From Primula veris (Eukaryota > Streptophyta > Magnoliopsida > Ericales > Primulaceae): a stretch of 64,000 bases of DNA. This document shows, one piece after another, positions 3,806 through 32,838 of this stretch. Position 1 is the stretch's first letter; each line of letters starts with the position of its first letter. The stretch spans positions 21,950,560 to 22,014,559 of the forward strand of contig OY821742.1 in the NCBI GenBank assembly GCA_963682055.1, in the 5' to 3' direction. The notes under the pieces are model-generated. The model was not told the origin of the DNA. It did not search any database and was given only the letters and a program-made list of their open reading frames with translations. The position numbers and the translations under genes were made by a program.

Positions 3806-4337
3806 TGATAAAACCATAACTTTTGTCGGTGGCGTTAGGTTTTTCAACAATGATATAATATTAAATATATAATAAATGGTGAACACTTCGGGATTTTTAT
3901 TATTATTCGGCAATCACCGTTGATCGGATTACAATTTCCTTATAACAATCATGCTCGACTTTAACTATTTGATCTCTCATCTTGATCTTTCTCCTTCTTC
4001 TTCGGTACTCGGTTCTTTCTCAGTTCGGTTTATGTCTTGATGTGACAAGCTTTTGGCTAGTTTCTCTCTTTTCTCTACTTCTCTCTATATTTTTTGGATA
4101 GATTTTCTGGTCCCTTTCTTGGGGGGATACTTGGCTATTTATAGGCTATTATGCCTCCTAGGATGTTGACAAATGTCTCCATCTCATGGGTTTTATCAGA
4201 TATGGGTCTCTAGTTAAATGGGCTTGGGCTTTTTGTAAAGGAGGTGATAACCCATTAAGCGTTGGATACCCAGTTATGATATATGGGCTGATTAAGACCC
4301 GAATAGAATATTTGGGTCTAATTTTTATGTTCTATCA
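3806..4337 (-). repeat. Element A, 3' LTR (532 bp)
   Basis: Matches 34628-35156 almost throughout. On the minus strand it starts TGATAGAACAT and ends GGTTTTATCA. A TATA-like TATAAATAGCC lies near 4137-4147 on the minus strand and probably belongs to the LTR promoter. Just inside the element on the minus strand is the purine-rich tract GAGGAAGTCAGGGAGCAC, the likely polypurine tract, at about 4338-4360. Confidence 0.9.
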
Positions 4338-4576
4338 AGTGCTCCCTGACTTCCTCGGCGTGGTTTCCACGTCGAGGGAATCATGATTGGTCTGCCGAAG
4401 AGATTACTTCGGTTTACCTGTTCCCTATGTTTCATTCGGCAAATGCCCCTATTTATAAATGATCCTTTGGACCAATTTATTGTCTTGGGAACTTGCAAAT
4501 TTGCTATTTGACTTTGATAAGACCCTTGGTATCTTTCTTCGAAGCAACCCGTGACCTTTCTTAAACATCCCCTTAT

Positions 4577-4583
4577 TATAAAA
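4577..4583 (+). promoter_or_regulatory. TATA box of antisense gene g1 (copy A)
   Basis: TATAAAA lies 61 bases before the g1 ATG. Copy B has TATAAAG at the matching place (32017-32023, minus). Confidence 0.6.
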
Positions 4584-4637
4584 AGGGAATACCCTTCCTA
4601 CAATTACTTATTCCATCACCACCTTGCTTGTGAATTA

Positions 4638-4949
4638 ATGGCTTCTCCCAATTGTTCTACTGGAGACAATTCTTCAGATTATGTCGCTTACTTGGAGAAT
4701 GAAGTCAAGAAGGCTCGCGTTATGAAAAAGAAATTGGCGGACGTGACAAAAAGGCTATCTGATATGGACATAGCTCATCACTTGACGATGGCTGACCTTG
4801 ATCGGGCCTTTGAACGTATAAAGAGGCTCGAGGCTTCTCTGGCTAAGCAAAAGGCAGCAAAAAGGGCCTATAAGCTTGCTTTTAAGGAGTTGCATGCTCG
4901 GTCTAAACCGAGTTCGGATGACGATGAAGGAAGCTCTTCCTCGGAATAA
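4638..4949 (+). CDS. Antisense gene g1 (copy A): small coiled-coil protein, 103 aa
   Basis: An intact ORF from an ATG to TAA, opposite in strand to gag-pol of its element. The protein starts MASPN, then has a Ser/Asp-rich stretch, heptad-like helices (YLENEVKKAR, FERIKRLEASLAKQKAAKRA), the motif KRAYKLAFKELHARSK and a Ser/Glu-rich tail. It is probably a soluble coiled-coil protein, with no membrane segment or known catalytic motif. It is paralogous to g2, which shares MASP, GDN, YVAxLExEV and KRAYKLAxKExxARSK. A TATA box lies 61 bases upstream and an AATAAA near 5020 downstream. Copy B has the same length. Between copies, by eye over about 90 codons, roughly 16 changes are synonymous and 11 are replacements, which suggests past purifying selection. 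Function unknown. Confidence 0.72.
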   Translation: MASPNCSTGDNSSDYVAYLENEVKKARVMKKKLADVTKRLSDMDIAHHLTMADLDRAFERIKRLEASLAKQKAAKRAYKLAFKELHARSKPSSDDDEGSSSSE

Positions 4950-5182
4950 TTAGTCGTTTATGATTTTTTTTGTATTGGATATTATCTCCAAGTTGTAACT
5001 GAACTATTGAAAATATTAATAAAATATTTTTTTATTATCGCTCTTGTCTGTTTATCTTCTTGGTACCTTATTGGATGACTTAATGGGATTTGAACTGTTG
5101 TAGTTAGCCATAAATTCTCTTGGGAAGCTCAAGAGGTTGTCTTTCTTCGAGATGACCTTTGATCTACCCCATTGTTTCTTCC

Positions 5183-5190
5183 TATAAAAA
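5183..5190 (+). promoter_or_regulatory. TATA box of antisense gene g2 (copy A)
   Basis: TATAAAAA lies 57 bases before the g2 ATG. The copy B counterpart is at 31410-31417 (minus). Confidence 0.6.
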
Positions 5191-5239
5191 GGGACTGTCC
5201 CTATTTTTTTTGTGCAACTCCTTCTTTATTAACGAACAA

Positions 5240-5575
5240 ATGGCTTCTCCTCGTGAAAATAGTGGTGACAACCTTCCTGAATATGTTGCCCATCTCGAGG
5301 AGGAGGTTAGGAGGACTCGTATCCTCGAAAGGAGGGTTGCCTCTTTAACCGTGGAGGCTCGCCGAGCTGCTGAGATGGATGAGCGCTTGGAGGCAATGGA
5401 GAGTGAATATCAGAGGTCTCTGATCGACAATATTTGGGCTCGTGCTCGGATCAAAGAGCTGGAGGCTTCTAGAGAGAGGCATATTGCTTCCAAGAGGGCT
5501 TATAAATTGGCCCTCAAGGAAGTGTATGCTCGGTCCAAGAAGAGGACCGAGGATGAAGCTGGTCCTACAAAATAA
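5240..5575 (+). CDS. Antisense gene g2 (copy A): small coiled-coil protein, 111 aa
   Basis: An intact ORF from an ATG in the context aacaaATGG. The protein is mostly charged helix: YVAHLEEEVRRTR, RRAAEMDERLEAMESEYQRS, and ARIKELEASRERHIASKRAYK followed by LALKEVYARSK. It is clearly a paralogue of g1, so the pair arose by duplication. It has its own TATA box and a run of AATAAA near 5627. Copy B (31360-31052) is intact but ends nine residues earlier. No catalytic or targeting motif is visible. It lies antisense between pol and the 3' LTR of element A. Confidence 0.72.
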   Translation: MASPRENSGDNLPEYVAHLEEEVRRTRILERRVASLTVEARRAAEMDERLEAMESEYQRSLIDNIWARARIKELEASRERHIASKRAYKLALKEVYARSKKRTEDEAGPTK

Positions 5576-6080
5576 CTCTCTTTTCCTTTCTTTTTTGTAA
5601 TGTAATTTTTTCGAGTAGCATCTTGTAATAAATTTCCCCTTGATTATTGGAAAATTTTCTTTTTCTTGCTTTTATTTGAATTATTCTCCCAATGCAATTA
5701 ATTTGACTGCGCACGCTTGTGGATTCATTAATGCTTTTTCTTGGGCCTTGCGTTTGACCTTATCCATTGAACCTTCTGAATCTTTGTATCTAGGGACTGA
5801 GGGGATTTCTCGAGCCCTGTGCACAAATCTTATCCTTTATATCCTAATATTGTTGCACTTTTTCCAGATTGACACGTGCAGAGGCTTTTCGAATTTTACC
5901 CTCTTTAAATACTGGCATGAATCCAAGCGTTTCTTCTCAACAGACGCCTCTTTTTATAATGAATGGTTGCAACTCCCCACTTTTAATTTCTCAACAGGCG
6001 CATCTTTTAATTACCCTCGTTTTCCCAAATCTCTTGGCGAACGGTTGCACTTCCCCACACTAATCCTTCCTTAATTTTTC

Positions 6081-6088
6081 TATAAATA
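6081..6088 (+). promoter_or_regulatory. TATA box of antisense gene g3 (copy A)
   Basis: TATAAATA lies 92 bases before the g3 ATG. The copy B counterpart is at 30571-30578 (minus). Confidence 0.6.
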
Positions 6089-6172
6089 CCTTCCTGAGAT
6101 ATGGATTTCCTCACAATCTCACCCCTATCTCTCTTCATCATATATAGAATTTTATCTTTTAACCTCCTAAAA

Positions 6173-6466
6173 ATGGAAGGTTCTCCAACCAAATCTGCAT
6201 TGGTTATGCAAGTGGAGGCTTTTGAAGCCTCCTATGGCCATGCACTAAAGCTGTTGAAGGATTCTGAAGAGGAGTTAAAGGTGATGCGTTATCACCATAC
6301 CGAGATGGTTCGGGAATTGACTTGGCTAAGGTCCGAGCTGGATTATTGCCGACGTGCTCGTCGGTCTCTAGTCGAAGAGAATGAGGTGTTGAGGGGGAAT
6401 CGGACACTTAGAGACAGGGATGTCTCTGCCGGTCCATCTCATCGATACCGATCGACTTCCCCCTAG
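6173..6466 (+). CDS. Antisense gene g3 (copy A): small coiled-coil protein, 97 aa
   Basis: An intact ORF. I chose the ATG at 6173 (context aaaaATGGAAGG) because it sits just downstream of a conserved TATA box and the copy B ORF has the same start and length. The protein has a short N-terminus, a long helix with heptad character (LKLLKDSEEELKVMRYHHTE, then a Trp-Leu-Arg segment and ARRSLVEENEVLRGN) and a Ser/Arg-rich end. It resembles g1 and g2 only in general build. An upstream extension in the same frame lacks support. It is followed by a long pyrimidine-rich tract. Function unknown. Confidence 0.7.
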   Translation: MEGSPTKSALVMQVEAFEASYGHALKLLKDSEEELKVMRYHHTEMVRELTWLRSELDYCRRARRSLVEENEVLRGNRTLRDRDVSAGPSHRYRSTSP

Positions 6467-7231
6467 CCTTGCCCTTTTTCTTTTCTTCATCTTCTCTCCC
6501 ATCACTCTTTTTCTTTCTCTTTTTTTTTTTTGTTTTGTTCCTTTTACTTTCTTTTTATTTTTCTCAGTTTCCTTCATTTCTTCCTCTTCCTCTTCTTGCA
6601 CTCTTCTTCTTTTCTGTTTTATGCTTTGTTCTCTTCTTTTTCTTTTTTCCCTTTTTCTCTTCTTCTGCACCACTATGATGTAACAATCAACCCTGTGATC
6701 CTAAGGGTTTTGTGTTACTTCTAGGGTTTTTGTCATTTTTCATTTTCCTCTTCTTGCTTTTCACTTCTTTTTTATGTTCCTCTTCATTCTCTTCTTCCAC
6801 TTCCCCATCGCCTCCTTCCTTCATGCATCCTGTTCGATGGGTTTGCCGACATAGTTGATCTTCTGCAATAGATTTTTCTTTTGATGTTATTCTCGGATGT
6901 AATAGACCTCGATGTAATAGATTTTCTTTCGATGTAGTCCCCTGATGTAATAGTTTTTTCCTTTGATGTCCTATGATGTAATGAACAGTGATGTATATCT
7001 CATCTTATTAATGAAAATTTCCTTTGCCCCTTTATCTTGCCCTTCTATTATCTTACACTTCTTTTTATGTTGCACTTGTGGTTTGTCTTTTTCTGGAACG
7101 TAGGCTTACTCGATTGTCTTCTCTCTTTTATTTCTTACTGTACCGGTGCCATGTGATATCTGAGACATGGCAGGCTGGTCAAACAGGCATGTTCCCAAGC
7201 ATTGTCAGATAATACCATACTATCTTTGCTC
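6467..7231 (+). other. Pyrimidine-rich 3' flank of g3 and spacer before g4
   Basis: 6470-6670 is almost entirely C and T on the plus strand, and apparent ORFs there are low-complexity artefacts. 6830-7020 has a repeated gatgtaatagat motif and probable polyadenylation signals. The matching region of copy B (29540-30190) is purine-rich on the plus strand, so the feature is shared by the family. Confidence 0.5.
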
Positions 7232-7239
7232 TATAAATA
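7232..7239 (+). promoter_or_regulatory. TATA box of antisense gene g4 (copy A)
   Basis: TATAAATA lies 99 bases before the g4 ATG. The copy B counterpart is at 29531-29538 (minus). Confidence 0.6.
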
Positions 7240-7330
7240 CTCTTCAACCTTTATTCAGAATATATCTTTTTCCATACTGTGTTTGCTTCTCTTTCATTTC
7301 TCATCTCCTTCTGTATAATAACTTTTCCTA

Positions 7331-7810
7331 ATGTCTGAGCCCGTGGTGAGATATCATGCTCAGATGAAGGACTTGGATGCTGAGGTATCTTGGGTCCGTC
7401 ATAGAATGGCTAAGCTTGAGAATGAGTATGGTGTCCTGGCTTTGAGTTTGTACAACTCTCACCCCGAGGAGACAATTAAATGGACCCAGATTTCGGCCTT
7501 GAGTCGTGAACTTGACCACCTATTGGAGCGTAGGAACACTCTGGCCAACTCCTGGTATGAAGCCGAGGAGATTTGGGATCATGCTCCGAATGAGTTTGAT
7601 AACTCCCCTCAAGGCCTCGCTAGTATGACTGTTAAAAATGCTCGGCTTAAAGAACAAGTTACTGCCCTTATTGGCGAGAACGCATACCTTGCCCGGGAGA
7701 ATGAATGCTTGGTCGTCATGAACGACTCATATGAAGCTCGGTTAGCTAGCTCTGCTCGGGCGACTTCCTCTTGGTCTGGCAGTTCTGTTGTCCCACCCAC
7801 TAATCCTTGA
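7331..7810 (+). CDS. Antisense gene g4 (copy A): coiled-coil protein, 159 aa
   Basis: An intact ORF from ATG (MSEPVVRYHAQMKDLD) to TGA. Helical, charged segments alternate with a central Trp-containing part (LANSWYEAEEIWDHAPNEFD) and a second coiled coil (NARLKEQVTALIGENAYLAR, ENECLVVMNDSYEARL). The tail is Ser/Pro-rich. There are no membrane or catalytic motifs. Copy B (29452 down to about 28974) is frameshifted by a one-base deletion near 29158, so copy A is the better reference. It has its own TATA box and lies antisense to its element. Function unknown. Confidence 0.7.
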   Translation: MSEPVVRYHAQMKDLDAEVSWVRHRMAKLENEYGVLALSLYNSHPEETIKWTQISALSRELDHLLERRNTLANSWYEAEEIWDHAPNEFDNSPQGLASMTVKNARLKEQVTALIGENAYLARENECLVVMNDSYEARLASSARATSSWSGSSVVPPTNP

Positions 7811-7953
7811 TTAGATTAGTCTATTTTTCTTATTTTCTGTTTTGGAACTTGTATTAGAACAATTGTATCTTTTCGTATTTCGTGCCTGTCTTATGAACCG
7901 TTGCAACGCCTCGTACTTTGTGCCTTTTCGTTTTTTGAACCCTTGAATTTCTT

Positions 7954-7960
7954 TATAAAT
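7954..7960 (+). promoter_or_regulatory. TATA box of antisense gene g5 (copy A)
   Basis: TATAAAT lies 82 bases before the g5 ATG. The copy B counterpart is at 28818-28824 (minus). Confidence 0.55.
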
Positions 7961-8035
7961 GCTCCCTATTGCCTGTACTTCATTATCCAATCTCCTTTTC
8001 TCTCTCTTGTTTCTTCTAACTTGCTTTTGTTTAAG

Positions 8036-8400
8036 ATGGCTCCCATCACTAGACCTCCAAAAAGAAAGCCCTTATGGAAGAGGAGCCTACTTTTTTGCTA
8101 CCTCGTCCCCCTGGTTTCGGAGAAGAGGATTTGACACCTCTTCAGCTAAAAGAAATTGAGATGTCGTGGCTGAAGCACGATCTCAAGTGTGCTCAGACCG
8201 AAATGAGGCGGTTCCAACAGTACTGGAAGGAGGACAGCGCTGCTCGTTTTGAAGCCGAGCAGAAGTGCAAGTCTCAATCTCATGCTTTAAAACAGGTGGA
8301 GATTGGCATTTCTCATTTAATTAGGGAAAAAGAGCGTCTGGAGGAGCTCTTGGCGAAGAAGGATGCCGAGGAAGGTGGTAGTTCTAGGGCTCAGAATTAG
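8036..8400 (+). pseudogene. Antisense gene g5 (copy A): coiled-coil gene with a 4-bp deletion
   Basis: The ATG at 8036 (MAPITR) matches copy B. Just after 8053 copy A lacks four bases present in B, which shifts the frame. The remainder from an internal ATG at 8074 is open and matches B closely (PGFGEEDLTPLQLKEIEMSW, then LREKERLEELLAKKDAEEGG-type coiled coil). Either the protein is lost or translation starts at 8074, giving 108 aa. AATAAA at about 8475 may be the polyadenylation signal. The intact form is at 28737-28375. Confidence 0.65.
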
Positions 8401-9049
8401 AGAAGTATTCTAGTGTTGAAGTTGTAATTTTTATTTTTTTCCGTTGTAACTGGTTGTTTTCCCCTTTGTGGATGAATAAAACTTGTGTTTTGCAATTCGA
8501 TCCTGTCTATTTTATTTGCTTTGCCTTTATGTTGATATATTTCGATGTCTTAGTATCGGACACCGAGCATGGTGCACCGTGGTTATCCCCCCGGAGAGCG
8601 TTGTTAGAGTTGATGCTCAAATGCCGTCAAGCTAGGAACGGTCTCCGTCCACCTTGTTCGGTGTGCATTTCGGGTAAGACATGGTTTGGCATCGAGGAAC
8701 TTAATCGGAGAACATCCTCGGTTTGGTAATATTGGTAGCGTTTGCAGGAAGCATTTCGTGGTAGGGTCCACTGGCCGTTTATTTAGGTGTAATGATGTGA
8801 ACTGCCTTGGTTAGTGGGATATACTATCTGATGTGTCAAGATCTGGAGCGTTTACTTGTCGAAAACAGTAGCGGTTGTGGACTTTTCTATTGTTGGAAAA
8901 AAGGTAAACTTCTGTCACACGAAAGGACGGTTATTATTTTATTCTTTCTGTGGCTCCACTCTTTTTAACTGTGCGAAGTAATCCCTTTAGTTTTTTACCT
9001 CATAATTTGCTGAAGAAAAATATCTATTCTCCCTCACTTGCTCGTGATC
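8401..9049 (+). other. Probable promoter and 5' UTR region of antisense gene I (copy A)
   Basis: No ORF is supported here. Blocks such as gaggtaaac/ctgtcacacgaaagg and ttattattttattctttc are conserved with copy B (27840-27860 region, minus). This fits a shared promoter and leader ahead of the conserved first exon. I cannot identify a TATA box with confidence. Confidence 0.4.
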
Positions 9050-9249
9050 ATGACTGTAAGTATCTTCGTATTTTGTGGTTTGCTTGTTTGGATACTTCTG
9101 TGATTAGGATTCGTATTTGATTTGTGGTTGTGGTCATATTTGGTCTTAGTTGTCTATATTTGTCTGTCTAGGTTGTTGAGTAGTGGTTTTTCTTCTTGTA
9201 TAGGATATTTGTTGGGTTGATGGAAAACTTTTTAGGGTTTCTATCAATT

Positions 9250-9268
9250 GGGGGGGGGGGGGGGGGGG
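9250..9268 (+). repeat. Poly-G run in intron 1 of gene I (copy A)
   Basis: About 19 consecutive G residues. The matching part of copy B has only a short C run on the plus strand (about 27431-27436). The length should be treated as approximate, because such homopolymers are prone to slippage and sequencing error. Confidence 0.8.
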
Positions 9269-10236
9269 TGTTGTCGTGTCATGTGTTTTGGGATTAGTAT
9301 TTTGATGGACTTGTGATGATGTTTGGATAGGAAATTTTGACCCAATGTCTGGCCCAAGTTGGCACATTTGTGGAAGAGGAATTTAAGAGGCTCGCCGGAA
9401 TACCGGATAACATACACATTCGGCTGCCTGTCTCTGATGAGGAGGTGTTGGGATATGTCCCTGCCGGCGAGGTAGCTGTGTGTTCCTCAGCCTTCTTCAC
9501 TGGGGGTCTTAGACTTCCGTTTACGGATTGGGTGGCTTCGTTCTTTGAGGCCGTCCAGATAGCTCCGGCCCAACTCGCTCTGAATGGTTACCGAACCTTG
9601 ATCGGTATTCAAAGGTTGTCGGAAGTATCGGGGATAGCCATTGAACTGAAAGATGTATTCGGGGTCTACAGCTTGAGTTTCGAGCGCCGCAGTTCGTATT
9701 TGAAGACATTGCGCGCATTCTCCCGGCTGGTAATTGGGTTGCCGGACACCAACAAAGAACATAACCTTGGTGTTGTGATTACGTCCGGGGAATGGGGCTG
9801 TGCAGGACACCAGATCCCTGGACCTGTGACCACAGCTCCTGCTATTCCAGACCTCGGCGCTCCCAATGTTGAGGCTCTCTTAGCGCTTTGGAAATGGTGG
9901 GGGCCTGGGCCTACCAAGGATCCGGCAAGCCGTTCTGCTCCCCTGCTACTTGGTTACCCTGCGGGGCCAGTGACCAAGGGGAATCCTGCCCCCGAGATCC
10001 CTAAAGAGCCCGAGGAGGAATTCGTAAAAGTTGTCAGGGCTCGAAGTGCTGCTCGGGGAGGGAAAAAGCCCACTCGTTCTAAGCGCCGAGCATCGGACCC
10101 CGCTGTTGGCACCCCGAAGAGGGCTAGAGGGGTTGAGACCTCAGGTAATGTGGAGGTTGCGGATGTTGGCAGGTGTGTAGAGGTGGTCGCATCGTCCCAA
10201 GGTGATACCACCGAGGAGGTTGTTGCGAATCTCGAT

Positions 10237-10311
10237 GTAAGTGTATTTGTTTTGGTTAATAGTTGCCTTTTGACTCTGTTGTTCCCTACTTTATATGCTA
10301 TCTTGTTTCAG
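10237..10311 (+). other. Intron 2 of gene I (copy A), 75 bp, divisible by three
   Basis: It begins GTAAGTG and ends CTTGTTTCAG after a pyrimidine-rich stretch. It contains no stop codon in frame, so an unspliced reading would also be open. The matching intron in copy B (26356-26444) is 89 bp and does contain stops, which supports real splicing. Confidence 0.7.
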
Positions 10312-11812
10312 TTATTGACTTCTTCATTGGTTACCCTTGCTCTTGCCCGGTCTATGGGTATTATGGTGTTTCAGGGGTCGTTCGACAACATATTCGAACA
10401 TATGAACCTCCTGGTGAGCATGGGCGAGGATACGATGACCCTGCCTGTCGTCTCGTCTGCCCGTATTGAGGATCCGATAGATCTGCCTGTTGGCTCGCCC
10501 ATCCGTACTGAGGAGGTGACCGAGCATGGGGCCCCTGAGACCGGTCCTTCGGAGAAGGAGGTGAGGGAGGAAGTGGAGGTGGAAGCCGGCAAAGAGACTG
10601 CCATGGGAGTTGTGGTGGGTGTCGAGGATGAGGTTCTCGATGGACCTGAAAAGGTGTTGGTGGACGGGGTGGCAATGACCCGTTATATTGATCGGTGTAG
10701 GGGTGAACTGTTGGAGCAACCCCGAGTCTTGAGGATGGGGTATACTGCTCTTAAGCCCCTCGTTGTCAAGGATGCAGAGAAGATAGCTGCTCGTCCTGTA
10801 ATGTCGTTTATAGAGCAGGCCAGTACTGACGTGCTTCGGGTATGTTACGCACGTTTATTTTTTTTATTTTTATTTTTTTTTTAGGTCGTGATGCTCTTGT
10901 TTTGGCTGGTGTCTTATGTCTCTAAATACAAGTCTTCGTGGATATCGTGGTGTTAAGGGATCAGCTGTCGGCACTAGAGGCTGAGAAGGAGAAGCTGATG
11001 GCCGAAAATAAAGCTTTGGCCGAGGATAAAGCTCAGTAAGTGAAGTTGGTTTCCGAGCTAGAGGCGGAAAAAGAGAAGCTGACGGCCGAATATAAAGCCT
11101 TGGCCGAGGATAAAGTTTAGCAAGCGAAGTTGGTCTCCGAGCTAGAGGCGGAGAAAGAGAAGCTGATGGTCGAAAGCAAAATAACGGCCGAGGAGAAAGC
11201 CCAGATGGCTAAATTGGCCTCTGATAATGAGAAGTTGGTAGGAGATAACTTACGCCTAACCGAGGAAGTGGAGAAGATGGGGGCAGAAAAAGAGGAGTGG
11301 GTCGGGAAGTATGACTTACTGGAGGCCGATAACTTGGTCATGGCGGAGGATGTGGAGGCCGGAACAGCAGAGGTTGCTGCTCTGAAATTAGAGCAAGCAG
11401 ATGAACGGAAAAAGTTTGCAATGACGGCTAACTTTTCCGTCTTTTGCGCTCATGTCCGAGCTTTAAACTTTGCCAAGGTTCCCTTCTCGGACCGGGCGTG
11501 GTCGGAGTTGTTTTATCCCTGTCCGCAAGGTGCACCTCCTAAGCCTCAGGATTGGGCCAACCTCCGAGACGAGGAGCTCCCACGGCTGCCGGGACAAACT
11601 ATTTCAACGGCGCTCCGTCCCCATTACGGGTCGATTCCAACGACTCCTCGATCTGCTGCTCCCGTGATTCCCCCACCCGCATCCCCTCAGGTGGAGCCTT
11701 GACCATTTACTTGTAATATTTTCTATGTATCTTAGTGTAAAGTCTTTTGTTACCCGAATTATGGGTCTCTTTTGTAACTAGAAAGATATTCTTTTGGGAA
11801 GTGATAATATAG

Positions 11813-12496
11813 GTGCTATGTTTTCTTTCTGTTTGGCTTTCCTTGTTAATTCCCCTGTTTGTGGGTCGTCGTCTTTTGAAGGATGTAAAAACATCTTGTC
11901 AGGTACCCGCTAATCCCCTTGCCATGGTGGTCGGGACCTCGCCTAGTCGTAGCGTAGGCGATGTTATAAACGGTCTTGAAAAAGCTAACGCGTCCCTAAC
12001 TTCTGAACTGAATTCTGCTCGGCGCGAAATCGATGGTTTGAATATTCATATTTCAAATTTGTCGATTCGATTACGTGACTTGGGAGAGAGGTTCAGTAAG
12101 AAGACCGCATACTATACGGCAAATAAGGGAAAGGCTAAAGAGTTTCTTGGTGCGCTTCGGCGCTCTCGGGATGAAGCCCGGGGCCGAGTGACGAGCTTGA
12201 ACTTGGTTCTAGGGGCCGTTTTCGAAGACGCGAACCTGTTGCTATCCTTTGCCAGAGCATATTGGGCCCGAAGTCGCGCATTAGAGGTGCTCGATCATGT
12301 AAAAGGGATGCGTGGCGTTGCCCGGGCTGAGCGCATGGGTGATGCTATGGCCGCGGTAACTGAGACCACGGCTGCCTTGAACCGAGTGGATGCGGTCGTA
12401 CATGAACGTTTGGGGACTCAAATTGTCTCATTGCGAGATATCCATTTTGCTGACGCCGTAGAGACCTCAGCGTCTGTTGATGGGTTATCGGATTGA
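11813..12496 (+). CDS. Antisense gene II (copy A): coiled-coil ORF, start uncertain
   Basis: The frame is open from about 11813 to a TGA at 12494-12496, but the first in-frame ATG is at 11924. Copy B keeps the frame but has GTG at that position, and neither copy has a conserved upstream ATG. The in-frame text TTGTCAG/GTACC at about 11900 could be a splice acceptor, so this may be a downstream exon. The protein has a Ser-rich start (TSPSRSVGDVI), a helix (LTSELNSARREIDGLNIHIS) and KKTAYYTANKGKAKEFLGAL, then Ala-rich helices. There is no known domain. It follows gene I by about 110 bases and precedes gene III. Confidence 0.55.
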   Translation: MLCFLSVWLSLLIPLFVGRRLLKDVKTSCQVPANPLAMVVGTSPSRSVGDVINGLEKANASLTSELNSARREIDGLNIHISNLSIRLRDLGERFSKKTAYYTANKGKAKEFLGALRRSRDEARGRVTSLNLVLGAVFEDANLLLSFARAYWARSRALEVLDHVKGMRGVARAERMGDAMAAVTETTAALNRVDAVVHERLGTQIVSLRDIHFADAVETSASVDGLSD

Positions 12497-12537
12497 TGAT
12501 TGTGTAGCTTGTTTTGTCATTTTATTTGTAGCTTGAA

Positions 12538-12546
12538 TATAAAAAA
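12538..12546 (+). promoter_or_regulatory. Possible TATA box of antisense gene III (copy A)
   Basis: TATAAAAAA, about 140 bases before the gene III ATG. Copy B has TATAAAAAT at 24264-24272 (minus). The distance is longer than for g1-g5. Confidence 0.4.
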
Positions 12547-12683
12547 TCTTCATTCTCCTACTTTCGTGTCTTTTATTTTCTTTGTTCGATAAGATATCCC
12601 TGTCTCTTCTATATTTGCGGCTGAATATTCATCTCTTCCTTTCTTCCCCATTTTTTTGTTTTTTGTTTTAGGCACATGCTACT

Positions 12684-12970
12684 ATGTCGCACCAGGCTGG
12701 TTCTCCATGCCTAATTAGTCCGGGGCTAGGACCTACTGGTGTTGCCCGGGACGAGGTCTCATCTGGTGCGGCTAGTGAAGGGCATGCCAAGTGGCCTTAC
12801 ATCGTTTTAATGGGCAAAAACGTCAAGTTGGTCGATCAGTGCGCCCGACTTAGGGCCAAGTTGAAAATCCAGGCGTCCTCTTTTCGTGAATATGTTCGTC
12901 GTGCCGAGCATGTTGTTGAGGTTCAGGAGCGTCATTTAGATCGGTATTGGCGTGTAAAGGAAAAGTACAA
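12684..12970 (+). pseudogene. Antisense gene III (copy A), truncated by a fusion to pol
   Basis: Starts MSHQAGSPCLISPGLGPTG and follows copy B (24155-23520) for about 95 codons (LVDQCARLRAKLKIQASSFR, YWRVKEKY). At about 12968-12972 the similarity stops and the sequence becomes element A pol on the other strand. A deletion thus joined gene III to the RNase H/integrase junction and removed the integrase, the pol end, the tandem repeats and the gene III end. A pyrimidine tract ending TTTTAG precedes GCACATGCTACTATG, so the ATG may lie in an internal exon. Confidence 0.65.
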
Positions 12971-12971
12971 A

Positions 12972-15900
12972 CGAGGAGCCTTTCTCGTAATTTTCAATGC
13001 CTTTATCTTATCTGCCGGGAGGGTTCCGTTGCGTAGATAGTGAATCATGTCGTCCATCCATCCTAGTTCGTATTGTACTGACGCTACTCGGTCTATTCTT
13101 TTGGTTATGCTTGGGGCCGGTAGTTATTCCACTGTAATCGACCGAGTGTCGGTTAATGTTAATGTCGAGGCTAGGGTGGCCAGGGCATCGGCATGTGCGT
13201 TTTCGGTGCGATTGATTCTTATCAACTCGCACTGTTCGAAGGTGGCCATCAAGCTTTGAACCTTCTCTTGGTAGAGGATCATTCTGTCATCTTTGGCTTG
13301 GTATTCGCCGTTGGACTGGTTTACAATCAACATTGAGTCGGAACTTGCAGTTAGGTGGGAGCATCTGAGGGACCGGGCAATGAGCATGCCGTTTATCATG
13401 GCTTCGTACTCTGCCTCATTGTTGGTAGCTCGGAAACCTAGTTTAATGCTCTTCTCTATGATCGCTCCCTCTCTAGACTAGAGGACGATCCCCGCTCCTG
13501 ATCCGTCCTTGGTGGCTGATCCATCGACATGTATCTGCCAGTGTGATTGGGGCGATATAGCCATGGGCTCGTCATACCCTTCGGTGAATTCCGCGACGAA
13601 ATCGGCCAAGACTTGTCCCTTTATGGCATGTCGGGGTGCGAACTCGATATGAAATTAGGATAACTCGACCCCCCATGTGGCCACTCTGCCACTACTGTCG
13701 GTCCGTCGAAGCGATTCTTTAATATGGAATTTCGTGTATACTTGGACCTGATGAGCTATGAAATAGTGCGGCAACTTTCTGGTCGTGACGACCAATGCCA
13801 AGCACAGCTTTTCCAAGGGTAGGTAACGTGTTTCGGCTTCGACCAGAGTTTTGCTGACGAAGTAGATAGGGAATTGTTCACGGCCTTCTTCTCTTAGGAT
13901 AACCGCATTCACAGCTGTAGCGGAAACTGCTAGGTAGCAAGCCAAAATATCTCCTTTGTTCGGCCTGACTAACAGTGGCAGCGTCCTTAAGTACTCTTTG
14001 AGGCTGTTGAAAGAAGCTTCACATTCCGGGTCCCACACGAAATTTCTATCCTTCTTGAGTGATTAAAAAAATGGCCGTCCCTTGTCTGCGGATCGGCTGA
14101 TGAACCTGTTCAATGCGGCCATCATTCCCGTGAGCTCTTGTACCTGTTTCTTATTCTTGGGCACTGCTAGATTCCGAAGAGCTGTGATCTGATCGGGATT
14201 AGCCTCTATTCCTCGTCGGCTGACCATGTGCCCCAGGAACTTCCCTTTGCTGATGCCGAATGCACACTTGCTCGTATTGAGTTTGAGTTTGTGCTCGCCC
14301 AAAGTTCGGAAGACGTCTCTGATATCTTGAATGTGGGATGTGGCCTTTTCGCTTTTGACGACCATGTCGTCTATGTATACCTCCATGGTCTTCCCTATGT
14401 GCTCTCGGCATACCTTCGTTATCATCCTTTGGTATGTTGCTCCCGCGTTGCGTAGGCCGAACGGCATTACCGTATAGCAATAGTTTCCTAAAGGCGATAT
14501 AAACGACATCTTTTCTTGATCTTCGTGGGCGAGGGGAATTTGGTGGTACCCTGAATATGCGTCAAGGAAGGTCATCCGTTCTGCTCCCGCAGTCGCGTCC
14601 ACCAATTGATCAATCCTTGGAAGGGGAAAGTGGTCCCTCGGGCAGGCTTTCTTGAGATTGGTGAATTCTATACAGACCCTCTCCTTTCCGTTCTTCTTAG
14701 GGACGACGACGGGATTGGATAACCATTTTGGATAGAAGACCTCTCTTATGACTCCGGCCTCCAATAGCTTTTGGACTTCAGCAATTATAGCGGATCTGTG
14801 CTGTACAGATACTTTTCTGCTCCTCTGAGCTATCGGCTTATACTCGGCGTCAACATTTAGATGGTGACATGCCATTTTAGGGTCTAGGCCTGGCATGTCT
14901 TTGGGACTCCAGGCGAATTTATCAATGTTGTTGAAAAGGAATGCTTCTAACTCTTCAGATTCCTTTTTTGGAAGGTTGTCGCCGAGGAGAAAGTAGTGCT
15001 CCTCGTCAGTATCTGGGATATACACCTCCCTAAGTGTTTCTCCTACTTGTTCTTCAACAACCCTCTCGGTTTTGGCTATTTGGTTAATTAGCTTCTTTGT
15101 GCTGGTGGGTTGTTTGACAACGCTCAGCTGTTTTTAAAGAGCCGCGGTAATGTTCTCACAGCGTCTTGAATCTTCTTGACATCCTCTGGCTGTCTCGATC
15201 CCTCCCCTATCATTTGGGTATTTGACTTTTTGGTGATAGGTCGAGGGTATGGCCTTCATTGCGTGCAGCCAGGGTCGTCCCAAGATTGCGTTGTGGCCGG
15301 AGTTGTCGTTGACCACTAAGAACTCCACGGGAACTGACACGGATCCAGTCGTGACACTGAGGACGATCTTTCCCAACGGTTTAGTCGTCTCGAAGATGAA
15401 CCCGATCAGTGTGACATCGGTAGGCTGTAGATCTTGCATCTTGAGTTCCATCTTGTCGAAAAGCTCTCTGTACATGATATCACTAGAGGCTCCTTGGTCG
15501 ACAAGTACCCTGCTGACCGTGTCAAGGCCGATTTGAACACGGAGGTTGATGGCGTCCCCGTGGGGGTAAATCACCCCTTCTTCGTCCAGATCCGAGAAGG
15601 AGACGGGCGGATGTCGTCGCGGGGTGCATTGTCGTTTGGAGGTCAACGCCTGTGACGCCTTGGCTACCTGGCCAAAGTGCGCCAGTTGCCGTTGTCGTGA
15701 TCGTTCCCCACCCGTGCCCTTGGGTCGTGACATATGAACGACGTTGATTATTTTGCCTTGCCGGTTGTCGGCTCCCTCAATGGCCAGTTGTTTGCCTTTA
15801 TTTCCGGCGTCTTTGATGAACTTGGCCAGGTATCCCGCGTCGCCCCACAGGTTCATTTTCCACCGCAGGTTACGGCAGTGCTCGGTGAGGTGTCCGTAGT

Positions 15901-16031
15901 CCTCGTGATAAGCACAGAAAAGCTTGGGGTCTCTACGCTCAGGGGGGTAGCGAGCGGCTCTGGTCGTGAATACCAGGTTTCTCTGTGGATATTCTTAAGG
16001 ATATCTTCAGCAGACAGGTTGAAAGAGTATC
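12972..16031 (-). pseudogene. Element A pol remnant: gag tail, protease, RT, RNase H (integrase deleted)
   Basis: Read leftwards from the element B insertion site. The protease has VLVDQGASSDIMY. RT has FLDAYSGYHQIPLAHEDQEK and the catalytic YIDDMVVKS. RNase H has the LPHYFIAHQVQVYTKFH region and the HVDGSA-type start. In-frame stops relative to copy B include TAA at 15134-15136 (CAA in B), TAA at 14063-14065 (GAA in B), TAA at 13655-13657 (CAA in B) and TAG near 13481 (AAG in B). The reading ends at 12972 in the deletion junction, so the HHCC and DDE integrase modules are absent. The element could not have integrated on its own in this state. Confidence 0.85.
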
Positions 16032-16603
16032 TGATAGAACATAAAAGTTTGACCCGAATATTCTATTCGGGTATTAATCAATCCCCTTTTTAAACGGGTA
16101 TCCAACGTTTAAATAGGTCACCACATGCCTTTCATAAGAGAATAAGGTAGTATCTACCAAAAGCCCAAGCCCACTTAACTAGGGACCCATATCTGAAAAA
16201 CCCCCTGAGATGGAGACATTTGTCAATATCCTAGAAAGCATAGTTGCCTATAAATAGCCAACTACCCCTCCTAGAAATAGACCAGAAAATCTATCCAAAA
16301 AATATAGAGAGAAGTTGAGAAAACAGAGAAACTAGTCAAATCTTAGCCTGAAAAGAAGCAAGCCGAACAGCGAGAGAGCCGAATATCGAAGAGAAAGAAG
16401 AACGACCAAGAAAAGAGATTAAGCAGTCAAATCGAGCACAATTGTAATAAAGAAGTACTATTCCGAGCAAGTGTAACAATCCGAATAAGTGTAATAATCC
16501 GACCAATAATAAAGATCAAGAAATGTCCATTATTTACCGTTGATTTACCATTATTATATTGTTGAAAAGCCTAACGTGATCGCCAAAAGTTATGGTTTTA
16601 TCA
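16032..16603 (+). repeat. Element B, 5' LTR (572 bp)
   Basis: Near-identical to 32262-32833. TATAAATAGCC at about 16250 is the probable LTR TATA box. Preceded by GTATC. Confidence 0.92.
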
Positions 16604-16605
16604 AA

Positions 16606-16623
16606 TGGCGCCGTCTCCGGGAA
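16606..16623 (+). other. Element B primer binding site (tRNA-Asp type)
   Basis: TGGCGCCGTCTCCGGGAA, two bases after the LTR. It matches the complement of the plant tRNA-Asp 3' end (TGGCGCCGTTGCCGGGGA) at most positions. Element A has the same sequence. Confidence 0.8.
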
Positions 16624-16682
16624 TCATCTAGTTCCCAACTAGCTTAGACTTCGAATACCAATACTCTACCAGACGAGCGACA

Positions 16683-18585
16683 ATGGTGACCAATATAGAA
16701 GAAACCCATCCCGAGATAGTAGAAACCATTAACCAACACGTGCAGATTAGCCAACAAGACCTCGACAATCTACTCGCCATCCGCGATAGATACGACGCTA
16801 TCCAGTCCGAAAACCAACCGACAACCTCCAATGTTCACCGAGAACAACCGATCGAACAACCCCAACAGCTTGACGGGATCGTCGAAGAATACCAAACGTC
16901 CTCGGAAGACGAACAAGCCTTGCCCGTACTAAGGCGCGCAAGAAGACGCATACCCGGATCCCAGGCAGGACCGAGCTCAAGAGTCCCTTTGCCAACGGCC
17001 TCAGTCAACTCTGGGGCCCGTTTACAAACAAACGAAGCTGACCGGCTTGGTATGCCTGAAGGTCATGAACTCGAACAGTTGTCCCGATTACCGAATCACC
17101 CACCAAGGATGATTACACCACCCACGGTGGAAGTACAACACATCGTTCCAATAGCTGATGAAAGGAACAACGCCCAGCTGCAAGCTCAGCTGGCAACGTG
17201 TATGACGGCCATGGCAGCAGCCGGCATCAGACTGCCGGGTACTCAACCTGCCAACGCAGACAAAGATCCACATCGTGAAGCGGAAGATTCCGCCTATAGG
17301 GCCGCCTTGGAAGCGGCGGGCTGGCGACCAGATCAAGAAGTGCCCCATCAAGGAGGCAACGTCCCGATAACAATCCCTCCGACCTTCGCCCACCCAAACG
17401 CGTATACGGAACATGTCCTCGACAGAAACCCGAAGGATGATAGGTATCCCGAACACATGATCGGGGGAGGATACGGCCCACCACCACAACAGGGGGGATA
17501 CACCCCCCTACCAAGTCACGGATGATGCGTTCCAACAGGCTTGGAACGTATGCCAAGAAACCCCATGTACCGAGCAGATCACTCGATATCGCAATCCTAT
17601 GGGGTTCGTCATTTCCGAGTTCAGGCTCTATGATGGAAGGAGTTGTCCTATTGACCATCTGAGGCACTACAAGACGAAGATGGAGCTGTGGAGTGACGAC
17701 CATGCACTGATGTGCAAATTTTTCAAAAACAGCTTGGGCCAAGAGGCTTCTTCGTGGTATCACAACTTACCACGGGGCTCAATAAGAGACTGGGCAGAGC
17801 TGCTAAGAGCGTACTCCACCAGATACGCCGCACATCGGAAGAAGAAGGTTAGCATCGAAACCCTTCTGAAAATGACGATGACGCCAAATGAAAGGCTCAA
17901 CGACTACTGCATACGTTTCATTGACGTAGCAAATCAGATTCCGCAGTACGCCAATATTATAGCTATCCAGAACTTTATCAATTTCGTCCCTAATGGCTAT
18001 TGGGCGAGGAGGAAGTTCATAGGCAAAAACTTCCCGACCACTGATTCCCTACTAGCCTATTGCACCCACCTCACCAATAAAAACGACGAACTACGTTTCC
18101 TCAACCGAACTCTACCAAGAAGAGAATCGGTCCGAGAGGCACAGGTGGGTCGCAAAAGAGTTAGGAATAACCAGGGGGAAATGTTCCAACCGACCAGAAA
18201 GGACAAAGGTCCCGAGGTCCGTAGCAGGGTAGAGCGACGACGAGAACCCGAGCCCAAACCGCTCCAGATCGCATACCCAACACCGACCAACGAACATAAG
18301 CCGCTCCAGCTCACCTACCCAATGCCCCCCAAACCGTTTCAACAAGGTTGGCTCCCAGAGAGGGAACGCCGAAACACCTACGAACCGGTTGAGCTGCGAT
18401 ACACTTTCAACCTATCTGCTGAAGATATCCTCAAGGATATATGCAGGGAAAGTTGGTATTCCCGACCACCGCCGATCACTTCTCCCCCCAGTATGAGAGA
18501 CTCCAAGCTCTTCTGCGCATATCATGAGGATCACGGCCATCTCACTGAGCACTGCCGTAACTTGCGATGGAAAATGAACCTATAG
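16683..18585 (+). pseudogene. Element B gag, frameshifted and with a nonsense codon
   Basis: The ATG at 16683 (MVTNIEETHPEIVETINQHV) matches element A. The capsid-like region includes FRLYDGRSCPIDHLRHYKTK, FKNSLGQEASSWYHNLPRGS and LNDYCIRFIDVANQIP, and is followed by Arg/Pro-rich sequence and a zinc-knuckle-like CAYHEDHGHLTEHC. The frame breaks at a run of six Cs (17503-17508). Element A has seven Cs there, and the protein frame would be kept with eight. TAG at 18583-18585 replaces the TGG seen in A. Gag normally forms the virus-like particle that packages element RNA. Confidence 0.88.
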
Positions 18586-21500
18586 GGCGATGCGGGATAT
18601 TTAGCAAAGTTCATCAAAGGCGCTGGGAATAAAGGCAAGGCAAAACAACTGGCCATCGAGGGAGCCGACAACCGGCAAGGCAAAACAATCAACGTCGTTC
18701 ACATGTCACGACCCAAGAGCATAGGTGGGGATCGATCACGACAACGGCAATTGGCGCACTTTGGCCAAGTAGCCAAGGCATCACAGTCGTCGACTTCTAA
18801 ACGACAATGCACACCTCGACAATATCCGCCCATTTCTTTCTCGGGCCTTGACGAAGAAGGGGTGATTTACCCCCACGGAGACGCCATTAACCTCCGTGTT
18901 CAAATAGGCCTTGACACGGTCAGCAGGGTGCTTGTCGATCAAGGAGCCTCTTGTGATATCATGTACAGAGAACTCTTCGACAAGATGGAACTCAAGCTGC
19001 AAGATCTACAGCCTACCGATGTCACACTGATCGGGTTCATCTCCGAGACGACTAAACCATTGGGAAAGATCGTCATAAGTGTCACTACGGGATCCGTATC
19101 GGTTCCCGTTGAGTTCTTAGTGGTAAACGACAACTCCGGCCACAACGTGATCTTGGGTCGACCTTGGCTTCACGCCATGAAGGCCATACCCTCGACCTAC
19201 CACCAAAAAGTCAAATACCCAAATGATTGGGGAGAGATCGAGACAGCCAGAGGATGTCAAGAAGATTCAAGACGCTGTGAGGACATTACCGCTGCCCTTC
19301 AAAAACAGCTAAGCGTTGTCGAACAACCCACCAGCACAAAGAAGCTGATCAACCACATAGCCAAAACCGAGAGGGTTGTCGAAGAACAAGTAGGAGAAAC
19401 TCTTAGGAAGGTGTATATTCCGGGTACGGACGAGGAGCACTACTTCCTCCTCGGTGATGACCTTCCAAAACAGGAATCCGAAGAGTTAGAAGCATTCCTC
19501 TTCAACAACATTGATAAATTCGCCTGGAGCCCTAAAGACATGCCAGGCCTAGACCCTAAAACGGCATGTCACCACCTGAGTGTTGACGCCGAGTGCAAGC
19601 CGATAGCTCAGAGGAGCAGAAAAGTGTTTGTACAGCACAGGGCAGCTATAATTGCTGAGGTCCACAAGCTATTAGAGGCTAGAGCCATAAGGGAGGTCTT
19701 CTATCCGAAATGGTTATCCAATCCAGTCGTCGTCCCCAAGAAGAATGGAAAGGAGACAGTCTGTATAGACTTCACCAATCTCAACAAAGCCTGCCCGAGG
19801 GACCACTTTCCCCTTCCAAGAATTGATCAATTGGTGGACGCAACTGCAGGGGCGGAACGGATGACCTTCCTGGACGCGTATTCAGGATACCACCAAATCC
19901 CCCTCGCCCACGAAGATCAAGAGAAGACGTCGTTTATATCGCCTTTGGGAAACTATTGCTATACGGTAATGCCGTTCGGCCTACGCAACGCGGGAGCAAC
20001 ATACCAAAGGATGATAACAAGGGTATGTCGAGATCATATAGGGAAGACAATGGAGGTATACATAGATGACATGGTTGTCAAAAGCGAAAAGGCTACATCC
20101 CACCTTCAAGATATTAGAGACGTTTTCCAAATGCTGGGCGAGCACAAACTGAAACTCAACGCGAGCAAGTGTGCATTCGGCATCAGCAAAGGGAAGTTTC
20201 TGGGACACATGGTCATCCGACGAGGAATAGAAGCTAATCCCGATCAGATCATAGCTCTTCGGAACCTAGCAGCTCCCAAGAATAAGAAGCAGGTACAAGA
20301 GCTCACGGGAATGATGGCAGCATTGAGCAGGTTCATCAGTCGATCCGCAGACAAGGGACGGCCATTTTTTGAATCACTCAAGAAGGAATAGAAAATTCGT
20401 GTGGGACCCGGAATGTGAAGTTTCTTTCAACAACCTCAAAGAGTATTTAAGGACGCTGCCAATGCTAGTCAGGCCGAACAAATGAGATATTCTGGCGTGC
20501 TACCTAGCAGTTTCCACTACAGCTGTGAGCGCGGTTATCCTAAGAGAAGAAGGTCGCTAACAATTCCCTATCTACTTCATCAGCAAAACTCTGGTTGAAG
20601 CCGAGACACGATACCTACCCTTGGAAAAGCTGTGTTTGGCATTGGTCGTCGCGACCAGGAAGTTGCCGCACTATTTTATAGCTCATCGGGTCCAAGTATA
20701 CACGAAATTCCATATCAAGGAATCGCTTCGACGGACCGACATCAGTGGCAGAGTGGCCGCATGGGGAGTCGAATTATCCCAATTTCATATCGAGTTCGCA
20801 CCCCGACATGCCATAAAGGGACAAGTCTTGGCCGATTTCGTCGCGGAATTCACCGAAGGGTATGACGAGCCTACGGCTATGTCCCCACAATCACACTGGC
20901 AGATTCATGTCGATGGATCAGCCACCAAGGACGAATCAGGAGCAGGGATCGTCCTCAAGTCTAGAGAGGGAGCGATCATAGAGAAAAACATTAAACTGGG
21001 TTTCCGAGCTACCAACAATGAGGCTGAGTATGAAGCCATGATAAACGGTATGCTCATTGCCCGGTCCCTCGGATGCTCCCACTTAACTGCAAGCTCCGAC
21101 TCAATGCTGATCGTGAATCAAGCCATCGGCGAGTACCAAGCCAAAGATGATAGAATGATCCTCTACCAAGAGAAGGTTCAGAGCTTGATGGCCACCTTCG
21201 AACAGTGCGAGTTAATAAGAATCAATCGCACCGAAAACGCACATGCCGATGCCCTGGCCACCCTAGCCTCAACATTAACATTAACTGACACTCGGTCGAT
21301 CACAGTGGAACTACTGCCAACCCCTAGCATAACCAAAAGAATAGACCGAATAACGTCAGTACAATACGAACCAGGTTGGATGGACGACATGATTCACTAT
21401 CTGCGAAACGGAACTCTCCCGGCAGATAAGATAAAAGCACTAAAAATTACGAGAAAGGCTCCTCATTTCTGGCTGTCCGACGACGACAAACTATACAAAT

Positions 21501-22627
21501 CCAGTTACCGAGGACCCCATCTTCTGTGTGTCCGGCCCGAAATGCAGCTACCAGTCTTGGAGGAAATCCACGAAGGATCCTGCGGAGCACACATCAAAGG
21601 GCGGTCCCTTGCTAACAAGGCAATCACCCAAGGATATTGGTGGCCCTATATCAAGCGAGACGCCGATGTATACGTCCAACGTTGCGACAAGTGCCAACGA
21701 TTTGCCAAGATACCTTGGCTCCCATCATCTATGATGATCCCGGTATCGGCACCATGGCCATTCGCACAATGGGCACTTGATTTAGTAGGGAAGCTCCCCA
21801 AAGCGCCCAGCAGCTTCGAATATCTGATTGTGGCAACAGACTACTTCACCAAATGGGATGAGGCTAAACCTCTCCGTGAAATTAAAGCCAGTAATGTCAA
21901 ACAGTTCATCTGGGAGCATATCATCACCAGGTTCGGTATACCTTACGCCATCGTCGCAGACAACGGCACCCAGTTCAAAGAAGCCAAGCTGCAGCTTTGG
22001 TACGAAGAACTCGGTATCCAAAAGTTCTATTCGACGCCAACATACTCACAGGGAAACGGCCAAGCAGAGGTGTCAAACCGAACCATACTAGACGGCATCA
22101 AGACAACCCTTGAACAAGCAAAGGGGAGATGGCCCGAGCGGCTACTTAACGTCTTATGGTCGTGCCGAACCACACCAAAGACGGGCACCAAAGAAACCCC
22201 GTTCAGCTTAGCATATGGCGTCGAGGCCGTCATACCAACAGAAATCGGGCTACCCACACTACGAACAACTTTAATCGAGCAAGGAAACAATGAACAAAGA
22301 ATGAGAGAGGAACTCGACATGCTAGACGAGAAACGAGAGATAGCAACTCTTACGCTAGCTAAGTATCAACAAGGCGTTAAGCAAACGTATGACAAGAGGG
22401 TGAAAGGGACCAAGGAGTTTACGGTCGGAGAACTGGTGCTGCGATGTGTAACCGTCTATACCCGAAACGAAACACATGGCAAATTAAGCCCCACCTGGGA
22501 AGGACCATACGAGATTGTTAAGAGAGCAAGCCCAGTTACCTACAAACTCAAAAGCGTCATGTTCGAGAAAAGCCGATGAGAAAAGAATTCTTGGAACGTA
22601 GCTAACCTAAAGAAGTACTACGTATAG
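18586..22627 (+). pseudogene. Element B pol: protease, RT, RNase H, integrase
   Basis: Protease motif VLVDQGASCDIM near 18935. RT has FLDAYSGYHQIPLAHEDQEK and YIDD at 20059-20070. RNase H has HVDGSATKDESGAG (about 20905) and NEAEYEAMINGM. Integrase follows with an HHCC finger (HEGSCGAH to CDKC, 21570-21690), core residues in ALDLVGK (about 21775), ADNGTQF (about 21957) and GNGQAE (about 22052). The order RH-INT is standard for Ty3/gypsy. Breaks: one-base insertion near 20388, TGA at 20483, TAA at 20558 and TGA at 22577. The expected end is TAG at 22625. Long stretches (18703-20391, 20621-22579) remain open, so the decay is moderate. Confidence 0.9.
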
Positions 22628-22756
22628 GCTGTCTTACAAATACAGGTGCTACCTTACCCCTCCTGTTTAATGGCATTATCTTTCATCTTTTGAATGAATA
22701 AAATATCTTGTTATGCTGTCTAACGAGTGCAGCTGAAATTCCCGAACGGCAAAAGT

Positions 22757-24155: not shown

Positions 24156-24263
24156 AGTAGCGTGTGCCTATAAAAAGAAAACGGGGAAGAAGGAGACGAG
24201 ATGAATATTCAACCGCAAAAAAAAAAAAAAAAAAATTGAAAAGACGAAAAGAGAAAAACGAAT

Positions 24264-24272
24264 ATTTTTATA
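24264..24272 (-). promoter_or_regulatory. Possible TATA box of antisense gene III (copy B)
   Basis: TATAAAAAT on the minus strand, matching position with copy A (12538). Confidence 0.4.
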
Positions 24273-24311
24273 CAAGCTACAATTTAAACGACAAAACAAG
24301 CTACTCAGTCA

Positions 24312-32833: not shown

Positions 32834-32838
32834 GTATC

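Follow-up and report, generated by a model that had tools for sequence, protein, structure and literature searches.

Why should a plant retrotransposon carry an ordered row of genes on the strand opposite to gag and pol? The question is raised by a stretch of 64,000 nucleotides (nt) of Primula veris (contig OY821742.1 of assembly GCA_963682055.1, positions 21,950,560 to 22,014,559; here called the window), in which two nested Tat-type elements, A and B, each contain such an array between pol and the 3′ long terminal repeat (LTR). Our answer, to which we give roughly even credence, is that a Ty3/gypsy element of Retand type has here a conserved module of accessory genes, which would work in the nucleus and act on the DNA or the particles of its own family. 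The two elements and their antisense genes are located as follows (dN/dS is the ratio of nonsynonymous to synonymous substitution rates between A and B).

3806..35157, minus strand: element A from LTR to LTR, interrupted by B at 16032-32833; target-site duplication (TSD) ATTTC; Kimura two-parameter distance (K2P) of the LTRs 0.0211
16032..32833, plus strand: element B from LTR to LTR, nested in A; TSD GTATC; LTR K2P 0.0213
4638..4949, plus strand: A g1, 103 amino acids (aa); TATA box 4577; dN/dS 0.22
5240..5575, plus strand: A g2, 111 aa, paralogue of g1; TATA box 5183; dN/dS 0.20
6173..6466, plus strand: A g3, 97 aa; TATA box 6081; dN/dS 0.20
7331..7810, plus strand: A g4, 159 aa; TATA box 7232; dN/dS 0.29
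8036..8400, plus strand: A g5, frameshift near the start, open from 8074; TATA box 7954; dN/dS 0.14 (from 8074)
9050..11702, plus strand: A TRP28-type gene; predicted exons 9050-9055, 9331-10236, 10312-10839 and ~10933-11702
11924..12496, plus strand: A gene III, 190 aa; dN/dS 0.20; an AG acceptor immediately 5′ of it is retained in 20 of 20 copies
12684..12967, plus strand: A gene IV, reduced to its 5′ part by the deletion in A; dN/dS 0.14
31655..31966, minus strand: B g1; TATA box 32023
31052..31360, minus strand: B g2; TATA box 31417
30193..30486, minus strand: B g3; TATA box 30578
28974..29452, minus strand: B g4, second half frame-broken; TATA box 29538
28375..28737, minus strand: B g5, 120 aa; TATA box 28824
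25111..27638, minus strand: B TRP28-type gene; predicted exons 27638-27630, 27350-26445, 26355-25827 and 25749-25111
24311..24903, minus strand: B gene III, frame broken
23520..24155, minus strand: B gene IV, 211 aa

In both elements the order away from the 3′ LTR is g1, g2, g3, g4, g5, the TRP28-type gene, III and IV, which makes eight antisense genes. The array extends over 4638-12967 (+) in A and 31966-23520 (-) in B, and the two versions align with 81% identity. Self-comparison of the window and the TSDs confirm the original prediction, which had been made from the letters of this locus, that a Tat-type antisense array is present in two copies with identical gene content and order. Its estimate of about 8-9 kb, or half of element B, agrees with the 8.4 kb of 16.8 kb that we find. 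It had also counted at least eight coding units; the number stands, with the correction that the frames 9337-10884 and 11130-11702 are parts of one gene because conserved splice sites join them. The TRP28-like domain of this gene had not been named in it. Damage affects the 5′ end of g5 and TRP28-type exon 4 in A, and g4, III, TRP28-type exon 2 (a stop) and exon 3 (a frameshift) in B.

The proteins of g1-g5 are rich in charged residues (24-41% D, E, K or R) and poor in P and G (5-8%). Descent of all five from a single amplified gene was considered and rejected: g1 and g2 are paralogues (hhalign, 99.4%), and every other pair stays below 9% (the B row of III entered the hhalign comparison out of frame, with only 17 aa). 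No bZIP match was found among A g1-g5 in Pfam at E 1. That coiled coils dominate, as had been proposed, is borne out only in part. According to a crude heptad score, none of 200 shuffled sequences reached the value of III and three reached that of g3, while the other values were reached by 13 (g1), 19 (g5), 24 (g4), 24 (TRP28 exon), 49 (IV), 108 (g2) and 191 (exon 4) of 200.

Judged from substitution patterns, the array genes are under purifying selection. Between A and B, dN/dS in the open frame is 0.12-0.44 for the ten coding segments (for the TRP28-type gene 0.12, 0.44 and 0.18 in exons 2, 3 and 4), compared with 0.12 and 0.11 for two segments of pol and with 0.80-3.39 in the shifted frames of the same strand. 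Third codon positions hold 439 of the 756 differences in the ten segments (p ~2e-46); gene by gene, this skew is not significant for g1 (p 0.16) and weak for g3, exon 3 and IV (p 0.03-0.04). Low ratios (0.11-0.47) are also seen in that frame of the opposite strand whose third positions coincide, so that dN/dS alone cannot fix the strand; it is the open frames with their start codons, the splice sites and the TATA boxes that identify the coding strand.

Within this genome the family carries the array as a regular component. We searched 436.5 Mb in 34 contigs and obtained 1,217 first-look candidates for the TRP28 exon of A, 1,189 for that of B and 1,273 for a stretch of the reverse transcriptase (RT); the best 40 of each set were scored, so that copy numbers are rough. 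Among the 20 best-scoring of 39 non-self places of A type, 18 show the complete set of ten array segments with their order unchanged, IV often being cut at the end of the piece. The two exceptions are a copy without g1 and LTR within its 10 kb and a copy without g1-g3. As these copies had been picked by an array gene, a selection by RT was added, for which 10 of 39 non-self places (ranks 2, 6 ... 38) were taken, none of them below 96% identity to the RT of B. Array genes are present in nine of the ten, eight times in the 2-kb piece and once in the next piece; one of the nine has no g4 or g5 between TRP28 and g3. For the B type, eight of 39 non-self places were read in part, and g2-g5 occur in order in six of the eight, one of them with a partial g4. 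Family members without the array had been named beforehand as the outcome that would speak for a private capture; with the array found in 18 of 20 A-type and 9 of 10 RT-selected copies and purifying selection on its genes, the claim of an accessory array that is a conserved part of the element is supported, and the test for private capture, applied to this genome, did not refute it.

Open frames are kept in most of the A-type copies. When an intact frame is defined as one without internal stop or frameshift, the start codon being left out of the check, this applies to g1 in 16 of 18 copies, g2 in 17 of 19, g3 in 17 of 19, g4 in 15 of 20, g5 (from 8074) in 12 of 20, exon 2 in 14 of 20, exon 3 in 11 of 20, exon 4 in 16 of 20 and III in 14 of 20; for IV it is 9 of 20, most copies being cut there by the fetch window. 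The ratio of nonsynonymous to synonymous polymorphism (pN/pS), pooled over these 20 copies and A, is 0.36 for g1, 0.30 for g2, 0.26 for g3, 0.36 for g4, 0.26 for g5, 0.35 for exon 4, 0.46 for III and 0.49 for IV (mostly cut by the fetch window). These values are noisy, as two non-coding frames, frame 2 of g2 and frame 1 of exon 3, also fall below 0.5.

Each of the five small genes has a candidate promoter of its own. TATAAA occurs 57-99 nt 5′ of the ATG of each of g1-g5 in A and in B, so that five of five small genes have it within 130 nt upstream in either element. As background, the motif turns up in 16% of all 130-nt windows in A and in 10% of those in B, and under this rough null the chance of five of five is ~1e-4 for A and ~1e-5 for B. 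In the A-type copies the box is found for g1 in 18 of 19, g2 in 19 of 19, g3 in 18 of 19, g4 in 20 of 20 and g5 in 19 of 20. Most B-type pieces begin inside g1, and the count for the eight pieces therefore covers g2-g5: TATAAA lies at most 130 nt from the ATG in 7 of 7 for g2, in 7 of 7 for g5, and in 7 of 7 for g3, where one distance was measured from a match starting inside the gene. For g4 the box is found in only 2 of 7; L045 and L048 have TATAAG at its position, L047 has a partial g4, and the probe gave no match in L042 or L043. Since g1 and g2 of A are paralogues and have the TATAAAAAGGG box and the coding start in common, it seems that a promoter-plus-gene unit was duplicated to give the two. 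Upstream of III, B has a TATATATA run at a distance of ~203 nt, and a TATA-like match ahead of IV may be part of the 3′-terminal sequence of III.

The TRP28-type gene is predicted to be spliced. Its exon 1 is tiny (ATGACT in A), exon 2 has 906 nt in both elements and exon 3 has 528 or 529 nt. Six splice dinucleotides were tested and each is retained in 19 or 20 of the 20 A-type copies. The intron-3 acceptor is one base off in A; AG is present in at least 15 of 17 anchorable copies, and one copy has lost the intron by deletion. Intron 2 has two acceptors of equal conservation. The frame 11130-11702 was rejected as a separate gene, conserved GT/AG sites and phase assigning it to exon 4, which in A contains in-frame stops. 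An 84-nt in-frame tandem repeat at 10974-11204 lengthens the coiled-coil part of exon 4 in A, and the B alignment has a gap there.

Relatives of this protein are few in the collections searched. The TRP28 exon of B has one match among 5.8 billion proteins, the 94% identical P0001 on a 1,877-base ENA contig; the TRP28 alignment found no relative in viral contig and genome contig collections, and a PDB sequence search with the TRP28 exon and III gave no match. The exon 2 linker of A and of P0001 has a basic stretch, KKPTRSKRR...KRARG, which resembles a nuclear localisation signal and is read as a putative one. A search of the genome with the TRP28 model of Pfam, PF04195, gave one place at E 1e-3 among the 150 of 990 candidates that were scored. 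This locus, L049, exceeds the Pfam cut-off with 29.2 bits, and the A TRP28 exon aligns to it with 27% identity over 204 aa (tblastn against that locus alone, E 5e-16). In the 6 kb around L049, tblastn searches for g3, g4, g5 and exon 3 gave no hit with an E value better than 0.1; by the layout of A, g1, III, IV and parts of g2 and exon 4 fall outside this piece. This is a weak hint that the small genes may be special to the A/B family.

Genes of the array are exchanged between subfamilies as gene-sized cassettes. The first half of g4 has 81-83% identity to A and 87-90% to B in 13 of the 20 copies of A type, while most neighbouring segments are of A type. The second half is also B-like in four of 20 (72-73% to A, 90-92% to B), and g5 is closer to B in four of 20. 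In addition, dS between A and B ranges from 0.23 (g3) to 0.99 (exon 4), as against 0.25-0.31 in pol. Template switching between co-packaged RNAs would be the simplest reading of this mosaicism, and array genes would thus re-assort.

In B, pol and the repeats that follow it were annotated as follows.

18703..22579, plus strand: B pol, two open reading frames (ORFs) with protease, RT, RNase H, additional RNase H (RVT_3) and integrase (Pfam)
22734..23207, plus strand: B tandem repeats between pol and gene IV, 37-nt unit with the dyad core GGAAT-N8-ATTCC

Pfam also detects a Retrotrans_gag domain in gag. The ORF 20621-22579 contains RT_RNaseH at 2-55 (just under the cut-off), RVT_3 at 97-215 and Integrase_H2C2 at 306-361, so that pol of B has the additional RNase H between RNase H (RH) and integrase (INT) that characterizes the Tat clade. 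The region from pol to the 3′ LTR contains antisense ORFs, a feature of Retand elements. Elements of the Ogre lineage have an extra ORF upstream of gag; in B the gap between the end of the 5′ LTR (16603) and the first gag ORF (16683) is only 79 bp, and no plant mobile domain was matched by Pfam in the element proteins scanned. The order RH, additional RNase H, INT is that given for Ogre and Retand, and the plant mobile domain is stated for 57% of Ogre elements (PMC6317226). Gene fragments with this domain (PF10536) lie on the minus strand at 1448-2783, outside and beside element A.

The LTRs of B (16032-16603 and 32262-32833) have 572 nt each and are 97.9% identical in the self-comparison of the window; the 5′ LTR (34628-35157) and 3′ LTR (3806-4338) of A are ~97.4% identical. 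With a substitution rate of 1.3e-8, LTR divergence would correspond to roughly 0.8 million years for A and B alike, within error. B is inserted in A between gag and pol. A has no counterpart of B 21469-23871, and has thereby lost the end of pol, the tandem repeats and the remainder of IV. The insertion target of A was a 21-nt tandem repeat array (TTCATACCCTTATTTCAAAAG), found at 3714-3795 and 35159-35508.

What might the array do? The tandem repeats beside pol are a candidate target. All eight occurrences of the dyad core in the window are inside the repeat array, and the core is found again in two further copies, ten times in L039 and four times in L040, whose repeat units differ in their other half. 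The parallel with the VANC proteins discussed below suggests that an array protein could bind these repeats. We propose that RNA polymerase II (Pol II) would transcribe the small genes separately from an integrated copy, whether the LTR promoter is on or off. The antisense strand would be where an intron-bearing gene can survive inside a retroelement, because the genomic RNA carries its introns in an unspliceable orientation. The TRP28-type protein would enter the nucleus via its basic linker and bind DNA of the element, most likely the non-coding repeats beside pol, with the small charged proteins as its oligomerisation partners; the module would then control how its own family is expressed, silenced or delivered to the nucleus. 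That the genes work together as one system is suggested by their order and co-conservation. A more specific version, which we consider quite improbable, is a multi-protein regulatory system in which the TRP28-type DNA-binding protein and seven small partners, most with their own Pol II promoters, would recognise the dyad core and prevent silencing of the family, while subfamilies compete and swap single promoter-plus-gene cassettes.

Several observations weigh against an accessory protein module of this kind. The dyad core was noticed post hoc. The match to PF04195 is below threshold (19.1 and 16.2 bits, cut-off 26.2), and the AlphaFold model of the TRP28 exon (three sequences) is unusable, with a mean pLDDT (AlphaFold's confidence score) of 33.9, so that DNA binding is proposed without support from a fold. 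The TRP28-type gene has no TATA-like box in A or B, and III has none in A. Exons 2 and 3, which are little diverged, have pN/pS values of only 0.66 and 0.83 in the A-type copies. The tenth RT-selected copy contains only a stub of gene IV fused to the LTR and is a deletion derivative. On the gag-pol strand of the array AATAAA is found 16 and 13 times, with ~7 expected; it is thus not depleted, and avoidance of premature polyadenylation of the genomic strand, which we had considered as a reason for the antisense layout, fails to explain it.

The array might instead act as RNA: antisense transcripts would pair with genomic RNA, give rise to small interfering RNA or hinder reverse transcription. 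The element would in this way hold down its own copy number, with a secondary part for the proteins. Antisense transcription and control based on double-stranded RNA have been discussed for such elements (PMC7264820, PMC12786077), and the five TATA boxes do point at gag-pol. An RNA-only role, however, would not predict purifying selection at the amino acid level, conserved splice sites and separate compact genes, and we regard it as unlikely. A kit for assembly or trafficking, with small proteins that serve the Gag particle or the preintegration complex as structural partners and do not regulate DNA, would fit the small size of the g1-g5 proteins, their high charge and their low content of P and G, and selection on several array proteins is near that on pol (0.12-0.44 as against 0.12 and 0.11). 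Independent promoters would uncouple their dose from Gag, however, and TRP28 exon and III, the two that were searched, have no sequence link to solved structures; we regard this explanation, too, as unlikely.

Two further explanations were considered. Host genes could have been captured privately by a single element, and a spliced gene accompanied by compact genes with their own promoters does look host-like. Yet the array is found across A-type, B-type and RT-selected copies, and of 63 Retand clusters that have been tabulated, 61 possess antisense TRP28 genes (PMC11963269). A recent private capture was rejected, as the array is kept in most sampled copies; the copy survey contradicts it. An ancient capture may have taken place, but overall we consider private capture very improbable. 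That the frames are chance or decaying ORFs could be argued from the several genes broken in A or B, but the codon-position pattern rejects this, intact frames, TATA boxes and splice sites speak against it too, and it is hardly conceivable.

Antisense TRP28 genes in Retand elements are already known. The survey of this lineage (Vicient 2025, PMC11963269) finds antisense ORFs in representatives of all 63 tabulated clusters and TRP28 in all but two; it counts 104 antisense ORFs in the 63 clusters, with tandem arrays in 32, and proposes a regulatory, DNA-binding role. The family described here agrees with it in the long region between pol and the 3′ LTR, the antisense genes, the tandem repeats, which are often beside pol, and a TRP28-like protein, which has the expected place and strand but is here below the Pfam cut-off. 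It differs in size, as this region has 9,682 bp in B and 2,933-6,566 bp in the survey, and the internal region 15,658 bp as compared to a maximum of 12,869 bp. It also differs in having eight antisense genes, whereas the 104 ORFs of the survey were counted with a floor of 600 bp, TRP28 excepted; genes of the size of g1-g5 (294-480 nt) would have been left uncounted because of this floor.

Other elements also have an antisense gene between pol and the 3′ LTR, namely Grande (GENE23), RIRE2 and PvRetro13. The Grande protein is reported to be nuclear and its gene to have its own promoter, which speaks for the module proposed here, and the antisense ORF of PvRetro13 codes for an SMC domain; in contrast to the present case, no eight-gene array is described for these elements in the portion of the review consulted (PMC7264820). 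HBZ of HTLV-1 resembles the array in being a regulatory protein from the antisense strand of an LTR element (PMC3185765), but its transcript starts in the 3′ LTR, whereas the TATA boxes found here are outside the LTR, one per small gene. A candidate for comparison at the level of targets comes from the VANDALs of Arabidopsis and their VANC anti-silencing system. They are DNA transposons, not retrotransposons. Their VANC proteins act on their own VANDAL kind, with targets that are often tandem repeats and vary between related elements (PMC5735166). Tandem repeats as a target are the likeness. A VANC-like system would have a protein that binds a motif of its own family and strips it of DNA methylation; here only a repeat with a dyad core has been seen. 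A multi-gene antisense array with separate promoters was not found among the top-ranked, mostly non-subscription literature matches, judged by titles and the starts of abstracts. Eight genes, separate promoters, a pol-3′ LTR region of 9.7 kb and cassette-wise mosaicism are what is new.

Published work leaves open the question of why nearly all recently active Retand elements keep TRP28 genes in antisense orientation (PMC11963269). The present family is a richer case for it, with eight selected genes, five core promoters, recombined cassettes to follow and an adjoining candidate target repeat. If many genes of this small size lie beneath the 600-bp floor, the number of accessory proteins encoded by plant LTR elements is higher than the record shows.

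A third LTR pair is present in the window at 39894-45169. Its LTRs have ~751 nt, are 99.3% identical and lie 4.5 kb apart from start to start, and the array genes give no match there in the self-comparison. The sequence after the first LTR (AATGGCGCCGT) and that before the second (GAGCAGTT) match the equivalent ends of A or B. This may indicate a short non-autonomous element that is mobilised by elements of the A/B type.

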